The notes under the pieces were generated by a model. The model did no database searches. It was given only the letters and a program-made list of their open reading frames with translations, and was not told the DNA's origin. This document shows positions 11,198 through 15,015 of a stretch of DNA of 20,749 bases, in pieces; the first letter of the stretch is position 1; every line of letters begins with the position of its first letter. Position numbers and translations under genes: made by a program. Source of the DNA: a virus; the IMG/VR virus record IMGVR_UViG_3300048839_001415, positions 1 through 20,749 of that record. The stretch is one strand, 5' to 3'.

Positions 11198-11325
11198 CGT
11201 GAAGGCTCACAAGCTGTGGGCCTTCGGCTTCGGTCACCGCAAGATGTAGCATTCGGCGGTCCTCGGCCAAAGCGAAAACGACCAGGGACGACCCGGCCAG
11301 CGACGATCGACGCGCTGCCCGTCCC

Positions 11326-11626
11326 GGTCCCAACCTCCGAACGCGTGGTCCCAACCTTCGAGGGGGTTGGGACAACCCTTTATTGTTTTACTCCAATGGC
11401 TTGAACGGATGTGGTCCCAACCTCGGTGTCCCCAACGGGGGTCCTTCTCTTTTCGTATAGAAAAACATGGTCCCGACCTTTTCCGTTCTCCCACATGAAT
11501 GTGTAGCAAAAGGTTGGGACCACAGGGCGAGGTTGGGGACACCATTGTTTTTGAACGACTTTTCGTGTCCCCAACCCCCTCTGGAGGTTGGGACAGGGTT
11601 GGGACCACCGGGGAGGTTGGGACACC
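11326..11626. repeat. Field of about twelve GGTTGGGAC/GTCCCAACC repeats in both orientations
   Basis: Copies of a 9-10-bp core are seen near 11326, 11347, 11413, 11427 and 11469 reading GTCCCAACC (some with an extra C or a C-to-G change). Others near 11365, 11511, 11531, 11585, 11597 and 11614 read GGTTGGGAC, and 11567 is inverted again. Two larger units look like imperfect copies of each other: 11365-11422 and 11531-11576. Each runs from GGTTGGGAC through an ATTGTTTT element and a TTGAACG element to GTCCCAACC, so each unit is also a potential stem-loop. Iteron-like or protein-binding roles are possible, but function is unknown. Confidence 0.8.
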
Positions 11627-11760
11627 GAGGGTTGACTTGAGCGAGGCGCGCTGCCGACTGCCTGCACAACCCTCAGCCAGCCGTGCAGCTCGAAGCTGCC
11701 GAGTGGGGTCACTCCCGGTTGCTCCCATCGGTAGCGGCAGATAGTACAATACGAATGCAA

Positions 11761-11783
11761 AAATTCCTGTTTATCGGGAATTT
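11761..11783. promoter_or_regulatory. Inverted repeat IR1, candidate AbiEi operator
   Basis: A 23-bp inverted repeat with arms AAATTCC (11761-11767) and GGAATTT (11777-11783) around a 9-base centre; the arms extend one more pair outward to 11760 and 11784. It shares AAATTC and GAATTT ends, and total length, with IR2 located 57 bp downstream. AbiEi antitoxins are known to repress their own operon by binding two inverted repeats in the promoter, so this is a strong candidate site. Confidence 0.7.
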
Positions 11784-11809
11784 TCGCGCTTATGGACCAT
11801 GTGTATGCT
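11781..11809 (+). promoter_or_regulatory. Possible abiE promoter between the two inverted repeats
   Basis: TTTTCG (11781-11786) and TATGCT (11804-11809) are spaced by 17 bases and could form -35 and -10 elements. IR1 would then overlap the -35 and IR2 the start region, a sensible arrangement for repression. Both hexamers are poor matches, and a TACAAT at 11745-11750 upstream of IR1 is an alternative -10. Confidence 0.3.
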
Positions 11810-11817
11810 ATTCGTAT

Positions 11818-11840
11818 AAATTCGCTTCATCCGCGAATTT
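11818..11840. promoter_or_regulatory. Inverted repeat IR2, candidate AbiEi operator
   Basis: A second 23-bp inverted repeat with perfect 8-bp arms, AAATTCGC (11818-11825) and GCGAATTT (11833-11840), around a 7-base centre. It ends 8 bases before the upstream ATG option of abiEi (11849) and 17 bases before the preferred one (11858). Centre-to-centre distance to IR1 is 57 bp, about 5.5 helical turns. The pair fits the two-site operator described for AbiE systems. Confidence 0.72.
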
Positions 11841-11857
11841 GTGCCAACATGATATAT

Positions 11858-12664
11858 ATGACTAAGGCATCGCACATCCCCGCTGGCCGAGCCAAACTTG
11901 CTGCCGTCCTGAAGTCGGCAGGCGATGTCGTGCTAATCGACGACGTCGTGCAGGCGCTTGGGACTGATCGAACACGCGCCGCCAAACTGCTCTCGCGCTG
12001 GACGTCGCAGGGCTGGATGCGCCGCATCGGGCCGGGCGCTTATGTGCCGGTGCAACTCGACCTGCTGGACTCGGCGCAGGTGGTCGAAGACCCGTGGATA
12101 CTTGTCCCGACGCTGTTCGCCCCCGGCTATATCGGCGGCCGGACGGCGGCAGAACACTGGGACCTGACCGAGCAACTCTTTCGGGACATCCTCGTCTTCA
12201 CAGCCGATCCTGTGCGCGCTCGCACTGTAGAGCGGCAGGGCGCGATCTTCACGCTCAAGCATATCCGGCAGGAACTGCTGTTCGGGGCGAAAACAGTCTG
12301 GCGCGCCCATACCCGTGTTCTCGTCTCGGACATTCATCGGACGATCATCGATATGCTCGACGATCCAGCCACTGGCGGCGGCATTCAGCACGTTGATGAC
12401 TGTTTTCGCCAGTATCTGGCGCGTTCCGACGCTGATCCCGCGCGGCTGATCGCCTATGCTGATCAGCATGGCAACGGCGCGATCTTCAAGCGGCTCGGAT
12501 TTTTGGCCGAGCGTCATGGTGCCGATAAGCTCGCCCGCGAGGCAGGCGGCCGGCTGACCGCTGGTAACGCCAAACTCGATCCTGACCTCGACTGCAGACG
12601 GCTTGTGTCGCGGTGGCGTCTGTTCGTTCCGGCTTCCTGGAAACCGGAGGCGGCTAATGATTGA
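11858..12664 (+). CDS. abiEi: AbiEi-family antitoxin / transcriptional regulator
   Basis: A 268-aa protein (from ATG 11858; 11849 and 11792 are alternative in-frame ATGs, the last overlapping the operator region). The N-terminal winged helix-turn-helix (about 10-65) includes VVLIDDVVQALGTDRTRAAKLLSRW followed by GWMRRIGPGAYVPV, the standard AbiEi pattern. The C-terminal domain carries PGYIGGRTAAEHWDLTEQ, then FTLKHIRQELLFG and VLVSDIHRTIIDMLDDP, typical of the AbiEi antitoxin C-terminal domain. In type IV systems AbiEi neutralises AbiEii without stable binding and represses the operon. It overlaps the toxin start by 8 bases, indicating translational coupling. The gene is less GC-rich than the phage core and on the opposite strand. 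Confidence 0.9.
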   Translation: MTKASHIPAGRAKLAAVLKSAGDVVLIDDVVQALGTDRTRAAKLLSRWTSQGWMRRIGPGAYVPVQLDLLDSAQVVEDPWILVPTLFAPGYIGGRTAAEHWDLTEQLFRDILVFTADPVRARTVERQGAIFTLKHIRQELLFGAKTVWRAHTRVLVSDIHRTIIDMLDDPATGGGIQHVDDCFRQYLARSDADPARLIAYADQHGNGAIFKRLGFLAERHGADKLAREAGGRLTAGNAKLDPDLDCRRLVSRWRLFVPASWKPEAAND

Positions 12665-14099
12665 TCGCCGCGAAATCCTCGATGCCGCCTCACGCTTCAG
12701 CCTTAACCCTCACGTCGTCGAAAAGGACTATGCCCTCGGCTGGGCGCTTGCCGGGATCTATGCGCATCCCGAACTTGCGTCGTCATGGGTGTTCAAGGGC
12801 GGCACGTGCCTGAAGAAATGCTACTTCGAAACCTACCGGTTCTCCGAAGACCTAGACTTTACTCTCAGAGACGTAGCCCACATCGACGAAGCCTTCCTGC
12901 GCCGTGTCTTCGGCGAAATCTCCGAATGGATTTATGAGCAGAGCGGCCTCACATTCCCCGCCGACCAGCAACGGTTCGAAATCCTCACCAACCCGCGCGG
13001 CAATCCGAGTTGCCAGGGCCGTCTGAGCTATCGCGGACCGGTTTCGCCCACTTCGGGCGGCCTGCCGCGCATCAAACTCGATCTCACCGCCGACGAGCGG
13101 CTGGTGCTCGATCCGGTATCAGTGCCCATTTTCCATCCGTACAGCGATGCGCCCGATGGCGGCATCACAGTGCTGTCCTACGCCTACGAGGAAGCATTCG
13201 GGGAAAAAGTCAGGGCGCTGGCCGAGCGGACGCGGCCACGCGACCTCTATGACGTCGTCAACCTTTTCCGCAACGAAGATGCGCGGCCTGAGCCGGGCGT
13301 TCTGCTCGACGTGCTGCGCCAGAAATGTGAATTCAAGGGCATCCCGGTTCCCCGCGACGGCGACTTCGACGATCACCGGCGCGATCTTGAAGCTGCATGG
13401 CAGGGAATGCTCGCCCATCAGCTCCCGGCGTTGCCGCCGGTCGATGCCTTTTGGAACGCTTTGCCGGAATTTTTCCGCTGGCTCGCCACCGGCGAAGCGC
13501 CGGCGCGGCCTGCGGCCTACGCGCTTGGCGGCGGCGAGACTGTCCTGCGCCAGCGTAGCCTTCCCGTCGGTATCCGGCAGAGCGCAGGTGCCGCTCTCGA
13601 AGTCATCCGCTTCGCTGCCGCCAACAGGCTTTGCGTCGATCTTGTCTATCAGGGGCGGACCCGCCGCATCGAGCCCTATTCGCTCCGGAGGACGCAAGAC
13701 GGCAATATCATCCTTCACGCCTGGAGCCGTGAAGCTAACGAACACCGCAGCTATCGTGTCGATCGCATCGAAGGTGCCCATACCACTAGCGAGACGTTCA
13801 CGCCCCGCTACGCTATCGAACTTACGCCGAGCGGCCCGATGACCATTCCGCCGACGGAACGGTCTCCGGGCCCGCGCACTTCGATTGGGGGCTTCAGCTC
13901 CCGCCCGACACGCCCTTCAAAGCCGCGATCCACATCACGAGGCTTTGGATCGAGCGGATCTACTTACGTCTATCAATGTCTTGTTTGCTCGAAGAAATTC
14001 AGCCGCAAGACCATGTCCGGAGCGCTGAACCCGCACAAGGCGCCGGAGGGCTACCCGTGCATGGGGCGCATGGGATACCTCGTCGATACGAAGTATTGA
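12657..14099 (+). CDS. abiEii: AbiEii-family nucleotidyltransferase toxin with WYL-like and zinc-finger C-terminus
   Basis: A 480-aa protein. Residues 1-225 are an AbiEii/DUF1814 nucleotidyltransferase: WVFKGGTCLKKC (44-55), SEDLDF (63-68) with metal-binding Asp65 and Asp67, PRIKLDLT with Asp142, and GEKVRALAERTRPRDLYD (182-199). AbiEii toxins use GTP or another NTP and cause reversible growth arrest; some relatives modify tRNA. Residues about 305-390 (ALEVIRFAAANRLCVDLVYQG, IEPYSL, HAWSREANEHRSYRVDRI) look like a WYL-type ligand-sensing domain. A Ser/Arg/Pro linker (395-435) leads to a C441-x2-C444...H460-x7-C468 finger and a GYLVDTKY end. Start: GGAGG 6 bases before ATG 12657. Classical AbiEii is shorter, near 300 aa, so the C-terminus is an added module. 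Confidence 0.9.
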   Translation: MIDRREILDAASRFSLNPHVVEKDYALGWALAGIYAHPELASSWVFKGGTCLKKCYFETYRFSEDLDFTLRDVAHIDEAFLRRVFGEISEWIYEQSGLTFPADQQRFEILTNPRGNPSCQGRLSYRGPVSPTSGGLPRIKLDLTADERLVLDPVSVPIFHPYSDAPDGGITVLSYAYEEAFGEKVRALAERTRPRDLYDVVNLFRNEDARPEPGVLLDVLRQKCEFKGIPVPRDGDFDDHRRDLEAAWQGMLAHQLPALPPVDAFWNALPEFFRWLATGEAPARPAAYALGGGETVLRQRSLPVGIRQSAGAALEVIRFAAANRLCVDLVYQGRTRRIEPYSLRRTQDGNIILHAWSREANEHRSYRVDRIEGAHTTSETFTPRYAIELTPSGPMTIPPTERSPGPRTSIGGFSSRPTRPSKPRSTSRGFGSSGSTYVYQCLVCSKKFSRKTMSGALNPHKAPEGYPCMGRMGYLVDTKY

Positions 14100-14127: not shown

Positions 14128-15015
14128 TTGCCGCCGCTATCTGAAATCCTCGACCGTCCTGAAAAACCGGCTCTGTTCATCGGCAACGGGATCAATAGGC
14201 ATAACAATGATGCGCGCTCCAGTTGGGACGACCTGCTGCGCGGGCTCATGCGCGACTATGGCGTTGACTTCACCGATGACGAAATTCGCGAGATGTCCAA
14301 CACTGAACTGTTCGACATTCTCGATCTTGCGCGACCGGCCGAAGATCGCAGCAGTCTTCAGGCAAAATTCTGTGAGACGATGAAGGACTGGAGGCCTGCA
14401 CAGCATCATCAGTCAATCGTCGGCTGGGCGCAACGTCATCGCCGTCCGGTCATCACCGTCAACTTCGATGAGAATTTGTCGCTCGCTGTGAAGGCGCGAC
14501 GGCAATGGTTGGGCAAGCCGTCTACGGACTACTATCCGTGGAACTGCTATTTCTCGGATACGTCGATCTCTGATCCGAAGACGGAATTCGCGATCTGGCA
14601 CGCCCACGGCATGATGCACTACAAGCGTAGCATCCGCCTTGGTCTCACCCATTACATGGGCTCGGTTCAGCGCGCGCGGCAATGGGTGTACGGTGACCGG
14701 GGTCTTCGTGCGTCGGCCAAGAACGCCGAAGCCAATTGGCGCGGCGCAAATGGCTGGCTGGAAGTCCTGTTCTTCTGTCCGCTCGTGATCTTTGGGTTCA
14801 GTTTCAACAAGGACGAGAACTTTCTTCGCTGGCTTTTTCTCGAACGCGCGCGCCTCCACAAGATCATCCCTGCGTGGAAAACGCCGACCTGGTTTGTTGA
14901 TACGCCCAGAAACGGCAGTCTTCACCGCAAGCCCTTCTTCGAGGGGCTTCAGATGCAGTATGTTGTCGCTGAAAACTATCAGGATATCTACGAGCACCCG
15001 GCGTGGAACTCCTAG
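14128..15015 (+). CDS. SIR2-family (NAD-binding) protein, candidate defence effector
   Basis: A 295-aa protein in a SIR2-like Rossmann fold. The NAD-binding loop is ALFIGNGINRHN (15-26), followed by SSWDDLLRGL. TVNFDENL (110-117), with candidate catalytic Asn112, resembles the T-x-N-Y/F-D motif of bacterial SIR2 effectors. WHAHG (157-161) gives the conserved His160-Gly161, and CPLVIFGFSFNKDENFLRWL (217-236) is the distal nucleotide-binding strand. Bacterial SIR2 effectors in Thoeris, DSR and related systems degrade NAD+ when a phage is sensed. The gene has no other recognised domain. It starts at TTG with AAGGA 8 bases upstream; no suitable ATG exists before the conserved motif. It begins 28 bases after the AbiEii stop, on the same strand. 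Confidence 0.82.
   Translation: MPPLSEILDRPEKPALFIGNGINRHNNDARSSWDDLLRGLMRDYGVDFTDDEIREMSNTELFDILDLARPAEDRSSLQAKFCETMKDWRPAQHHQSIVGWAQRHRRPVITVNFDENLSLAVKARRQWLGKPSTDYYPWNCYFSDTSISDPKTEFAIWHAHGMMHYKRSIRLGLTHYMGSVQRARQWVYGDRGLRASAKNAEANWRGANGWLEVLFFCPLVIFGFSFNKDENFLRWLFLERARLHKIIPAWKTPTWFVDTPRNGSLHRKPFFEGLQMQYVVAENYQDIYEHPAWNS

Follow-up and report, generated by a model that had tools for sequence, protein, structure and literature searches.

The AbiE pair and its predicted operators

The stretch of DNA analysed here (the window), 20,749 bases long, is a virus record whose minus strand bears genes for a portal protein, a terminase, a ParB-methyltransferase, a RuvC-like protein, a primase/helicase and a Cas4-type exonuclease. 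An AbiE toxin-antitoxin pair and a SIR2-like gene occupy the plus strand, with the RuvC-like gene on one side and the primase gene on the other, and this opposite-strand placement between phage genes makes them look like cargo. The following features were assigned.

11762-11782, no strand: operator-like palindrome 1, AATTC-N11-GAATT (match to AWTTC-N10/11-GAAWT)
11819-11839, no strand: operator-like palindrome 2, AATTC-N11-GAATT (match to AWTTC-N10/11-GAAWT)
11858-12664, plus strand: AbiEi antitoxin of 268 aa, read from its likely start, 11858 (PADLOC PDLC02271; upstream homologues)
12657-14099, plus strand: AbiEii toxin, nucleotidyltransferase (NTase)-WYL-finger (480-aa ORF; Pfam, PADLOC)
12657-13499, plus strand: nucleotidyltransferase domain, residues 1-281 (MenT3/TglT fold, Z about 20; near-invariant active-site residues)
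13563-13826, plus strand: WYL domain, residues about 303-390 (Pfam WYL, fold matches, conserved R336/R364/R367/R370)
13836-13949, plus strand: disordered Ser/Arg/Pro linker, residues 394-431 (pLDDT <50; poorly conserved, gapped)
13962-14093, plus strand: Cys2-His-Cys finger, residues 436-479, with C441, C444, H460 and C468 (pLDDT about 95; conserved ligands)

The toxin gene is one half of an ordinary AbiE pair. The product of the gene upstream of it was identified as AbiEi by PADLOC model PDLC02271 (E 5.7e-123, residues 26-284 of the antitoxin ORF). Its longest ORF begins at 11792, and the likely start at 11858 was placed from the ORF lengths in the family and from the operator. The two genes overlap by 8 nt.

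Conservation was assessed in a set composed of the window and the best 80 of 250 matches, all from bacterial genomes and at 50-73% identity. This sample of relatives is biased: of the six search peptides one falls within the finger, and the matches ranking below the best 80 of 250 were dropped. The relatives come from Pseudomonadota, Acidobacteriota, Nitrospirota, Planctomycetota, Latescibacterota and other groups, and their toxin tree does not track phyla. Viral contigs scanned with the toxin protein alone returned nothing; scanning with the alignment instead yielded L095, a full-length relative at 42%, and a second relative that is NTase-only. An AbiEi homologue was found directly upstream of the toxin gene in all 81 loci of the set, at spacings from an 8 nt overlap to a 15 nt gap.

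The two palindromes upstream of abiEi are the only AWTTC-N10/11-GAAWT matches in the whole window. In 732 kb of loci, 39 of 47 matches to this motif fell within the 320-bp zone just upstream of abiEi, and the sites were paired there in 12 loci, the window included. Of 77 loci, 22 had a looser form, AWTTC-(3-15 bases)-GAAWT, within the 75 bp immediately preceding abiEi; shuffles gave 0.95 (maximum 4 of 200). AbiE has been described as autoregulating through inverted repeats (PMC7319586), and the paired palindromes fit such autoregulation; they thus constitute a concrete predicted operator for AbiEi. The upstream AbiEi, overlapping genes, inverted-repeat operators and NTase motifs I-IV are all shared with the AbiE system of Streptococcus agalactiae (PMC3985639). 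Since AbiEi is always upstream and the paired predicted operator is conserved, antitoxin control appears to persist. On these sequence grounds it is clearly still there, and the extension of the toxin described below would add to it rather than replace it.

Domain structure of the toxin

The preliminary description had presented the protein as an AbiEii nucleotidyltransferase extended by a WYL-like segment, a disordered linker and a finger. This layout was confirmed by Pfam, AlphaFold2 and fold matches, and the support is stronger than had been stated. The toxin of classical AbiE is about 300 aa long (PMC3985639), whereas the present one, with its WYL domain and finger, reaches 480 aa. Residues 30-267 match Pfam AbiEii (E 3.1e-37, above the gathering score), and the PADLOC AbiEii model PDLC02317 (396 aa) covers residues 1-397 (E 1.2e-204), so that toxin and antitoxin both give near whole-model matches in PADLOC. 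However, PDLC02317 stops before the finger and its name is silent on the WYL domain. NCBIfam gave no match. The AlphaFold2 model, built from a 68-sequence alignment, has a mean pLDDT of 87.

When this model was compared with the PDB by VIA-align, residues 1-281 matched MenT3/TglT at Z about 20, indicating that the helical C-terminal part of the transferase stops before the WYL segment. NTase motifs I-IV of AbiEii/DUF1814 are present and invariant across 68-81 sequences; little or no variation is seen in these sequences at G48, G49, R61, S63, D65, D67, D142, K184, R195, D196 and D199. The stretch R61-F-S63-x-D65-x-D67 is equivalent to R76-x-S78-x-D80-x-D82 of MenT3, in which S78 is the phosphoacceptor (PMC7205606). 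T50 of the GGT motif, which is N or S in the divergent branch described below, had been considered as the phosphoacceptor; this idea was dropped because S78 aligns with S63, a residue invariant here and kept in that branch also. Judged by these residues, AbiEii is an active-site-intact nucleotidyltransferase of MenT/TglT type. With MenT3/TglT and MenT4 of Mycobacterium tuberculosis it shares the NTase fold over residues 1-281 and a serine at the S78 position, but those proteins are only about 14-18% identical to it and have neither WYL domain nor finger. MenT toxins act on tRNA (PMC11375011), and the fold and active-site residues suggest that the activity of AbiEii is probably likewise nucleotide addition to RNA, for instance at the tRNA 3' end.

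Residues 313-374 match Pfam WYL with E 5.2e-8 (33.2 bits, gathering cut-off 21.8). A chance or compositional origin of this match was considered and rejected, as the WYL segment matches the same family in all 45 relatives tested and the fold matches in the PDB agree. AlphaFold2, from the 68 sequences, places a helix and a five-strand barrel at residues 308-380, and residues 293/303-386 match PafBC, CapW-ssDNA, BrxR and DriD at Z 9-11. As the NTase match ends at 281, residues 300-390 lie outside the transferase: the segment is a separate Sm-like barrel and not a part of the NTase helical domain. It is therefore a true WYL domain, and its extent, given previously as 305-390, is corrected to about 303-390. 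When the fragment 298-480 was folded alone, the first 14 matches were WYL proteins of the PafBC/CapW/BrxR/DriD type (Z 8.3-11.6); among the matches listed, all cover the WYL part and none the finger.

The tripeptide that gave the family its name is absent, I351-I352-L353 standing in its place with only L353 invariant; it is not needed by the Pfam model, whose cut-off was passed without it. Alignment of a profile of the WYL part with PafB gave the equivalences R336=R181, R364=R208, R367=R211, R370=R214, A360=R204 and I352=Y196, and all six PafB residues, singly or combined, are needed for binding of single-stranded DNA (PMC11804915). Four of the five arginines are thus kept and R204 is replaced by A360. 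Among the 81 sequences (the window and the best 80 of 250 matches) R336 is conserved in 71, R364 in 79, and R367 and R370 in 76 each, while position 352 is V, L or I in 80. The phosphate-binding arginines would thus have been retained and the WYL tyrosine not. This alignment supports the nucleic-acid-binding role that had been suggested for the segment. The toxin shares the WYL fold, the RxxR pair and other arginines contacting ssDNA with PafBC, DriD, CapW and BrxR; those proteins, however, are transcription factors that combine an HTH with a WCX domain, whereas the WYL domain of the toxin is attached to an enzyme. The toxin has no N-terminal HTH, the NTase being N-terminal, and no C-terminal WCX, the WYL domain being followed by disorder and the finger.

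Behind the WYL domain, residues 394-431 are disordered in the model (pLDDT <50) and the alignment there is poorly conserved and gapped; the finger, residues 436-479, is folded with pLDDT about 95. The four proposed ligands are kept wherever the finger occurs (70-72 sequences): among those of the 81 that have the column, C441 is found in 72 of 72, C444 and H460 in 71 of 71, and C468 in 70 of 71. No Pfam family scored above its cut-off with the finger of the window, the best being zf-C2H2 (14.4 bits, cut-off 25.2); the fingers of relatives match many Zn families, weakly. Taken together, sequence and model make it likely that the toxin possesses a nucleic-acid-binding tail.

The main rival to the proposal set out below is that the WYL domain and finger form a docking module which would hold the RNA substrate, for example tRNA, while control is exerted by AbiEi alone. 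The MenT-like NTase, with the tRNA activity of MenT toxins, would agree with this, as would the Sm-like (SH3 barrel) fold of the WYL domain, to which RNA-binding Hfq also came close in the 298-480 fold search, and the retention of AbiEi in 81 of 81 loci (the window and the best 80 of 250 matches), often with the operator. On the other hand, NTase-only relatives and MenT toxins work without a tail, and structurally the top matches belong to regulators that sense ssDNA and not to RNA-binding enzymes. We consider substrate docking somewhat unlikely.

Loss of the finger and a branch without AbiEi

About 10 of the 81 sequences (window and best 80 of 250) lack the finger or have a broken one, which indicates that it is not always needed. 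L037, L040, L045, L049, L056 and L057 have no finger or clear remnant of one; in L046, L048, L051, L053 and L060 an early end or frameshift occurs in or before it. Finger-less relatives are scattered on the tree and fingers occur on both sides of its midpoint, so the finger looks ancestral in this sample and lost more than once. In even genome samples, the chosen centre being counted in each, the genomes with a finger-profile match (E 1e-10 or better) amounted to 4 of 289 in Alphaproteobacteria, 6 of 297 in Acidobacteriota and 6 of 273 in Gammaproteobacteria. Most of the matches lay in open frames of 475-527 aa. The proteins that were read through proved to be AbiEii-WYL, with exceptions that look like broken or orphan remnants, and the finger thus seems almost private to the AbiEii-WYL protein in these samples.

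A divergent branch lacks a detectable antitoxin. Its members L097:2501-3895 (Sinorhizobium mexicanum plasmid) and L121:4001-5398 (Sphingomonas parapaucimobilis plasmid) encode AbiEii-WYL-finger proteins of 464-465 aa, 26-28% identical to the toxin of the window over the NTase and WYL parts and provided with the same finger. L098:2501-3739 (Streptomyces plasmid) and L122:1501-2694 (alphaproteobacterial genome) consist of NTase and WYL, with no finger. The WYL segment of the L097 and L121 type was recognized by hhalign with probability 97.4 and E 1.5e-11. With a profile of 78 AbiEi proteins, nothing at E <1 was found at any of the four loci; the same profile detected AbiEi next to all other relatives tested, NTase-only ones included, at E 2e-21 or better. 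The L121 toxin stands alone, flanked by opposite-strand genes. As side observations, a SMODS-type nucleotidyltransferase gene lies 350 bp upstream of the L098 toxin, and a DUF3800-like gene directly downstream of that of L097. The branch keeps S63, D65 and D67, and the R367/R370 pair is missing. The lack of AbiEi makes antitoxin-independent control plausible there, yet the arginine pair is lost. It is this branch that would reveal whether an AbiEii-type enzyme can be safe without an antitoxin.

The branch also bears on the possibility that the tail is a docking site for AbiEi or another partner protein, nucleic-acid binding not being its main job. The strict linkage of AbiEi, which falls in a PADLOC subfamily of its own (PDLC02271), would suit such a role. 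However, the conserved arginines bind ssDNA in WYL relatives (PMC11804915), tail-less NTase-only AbiEii also pairs with AbiEi (L096, L124, L125, L129), and the divergent branch has the tail but no detectable AbiEi. Partner docking is accordingly regarded as quite improbable.

Proposed role of the tail and neighbouring genes

From the domain order, predicted folds, residue conservation, AbiEi coupling and operator established in this analysis, we tentatively propose, at less than even confidence, the following mechanism. The AbiE pair would be carried as cargo in the phage genome, where AbiEi would repress the operon through the two palindromic operators and hold the toxin off, and AbiEii would extend an RNA, perhaps tRNA at its 3' end, with nucleotides. 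The WYL domain would bind single-stranded nucleic acid accumulating in infection; the analogy of CapW, DriD and PafBC makes ssDNA the most likely ligand. The finger would supply a second nucleic-acid contact. Binding by the tail would then gate or direct the transferase in addition to antitoxin control. In this scheme we infer the transfer target, the binding of the ligand and its effect on activity.

This proposal is favoured by the invariant catalytic motifs, the WYL fold, the four of five PafB arginines, the conserved finger ligands, AbiEi in 81 of 81 loci (window and best 80 of 250), the paired operator, the known defence genes in the downstream sample and the flanking phage genes. Against it speak the replacements of Y196 by I352 and of R204 by A360, the lack of WCX, which closes the ssDNA tunnel in PafBC, the loss or breakage of the finger in about 10 of 81 sequences and the AbiEi-less branch without R367/R370.

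Direct switching of the toxin by a sensed nucleic acid, as had been suggested in the preliminary description, is possible. Its strongest form, a built-in sensor in which an infecting phage's single-stranded nucleic acid on the WYL-finger tail turns the transferase on, AbiEi sets only the threshold and the tail is the sole control in the AbiEi-less branch, appears unlikely. Alternatively, the toxin might be an effector that its tail guides to phage DNA or RNA, whose ends would receive nucleotides with no switch involved. A nucleotidyltransferase joined to two likely nucleic-acid-binding units would suit this role, but the studied MenT toxins act on host tRNA and no AbiEii acting on phage DNA was found in the literature examined; this we hold to be most improbable.

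The fusion itself is already on record, which limits its novelty: Makarova et al. 2014 (PMC4012209) name an 'AbiGII-like nucleotidyltransferase (DUF1814)' among the fusion partners of WYL, which in their proposal senses nucleotides or pieces of nucleic acid, and the PADLOC AbiEii model spans residues 1-397. The WYL-DUF1814 entry, however, is a single list line, and the text examined gives no finger, residues or partner survey. Our literature search, outside which most subscription papers fell, returned only that article for DUF1814 with WYL and no paper for AbiE, WYL and zinc finger together. No WYL domain or finger is described for the AbiE and MenT toxins tested in PMC3985639, PMC7205606 and PMC11375011, and AbiE of Mesorhizobium huakuii was ruled out as an earlier test of such a toxin, its toxin being only 0.7 kb. 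For the finger, residue mapping, operator and AbiEi-less branch we found no earlier description. The trigger of AbiE-type systems during infection is an unsettled question in the literature examined, and a toxin fused to a domain of this ssDNA-sensing kind allows a direct trigger to be tested by point mutants of the few residues named above.

The SIR2-like gene (14128-15015, plus strand) begins 28 nt after the toxin gene, matches Pfam SIR2_2 at E 0.0011, below the cut-off, and has relatives of about 41% identity on plasmids of Agrobacterium and Sphingomonas. It was rejected as a third AbiE component, since it was found beside none of the best 80 of 250 relatives, and is treated as separate cargo, possibly an NAD-depleting defence. 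No constant third gene was found among the toxin neighbours in the relatives' loci. Downstream genes sampled there encode HsdM-type methylases, a TOTE primase-helicase, a NACHT-C-terminal-domain protein, AbiU, PD-Lambda-3_A and an HNH nuclease. In L064, L069, L072 and L074 the toxin gene is followed within 7-74 nt by a type I restriction methylase gene of HsdM type, an arrangement that makes the AbiE pair look like a guard of the restriction locus; the methylase gene lies further downstream in L071 (with a Fic gene between) and L061 (with a HipA-like gene between). In the window, short G/C-rich words of the GGTTGGGAC / GTCCCAACC type were seen by eye to recur at 11300-11660, between the RuvC-like gene and the AbiE operon.
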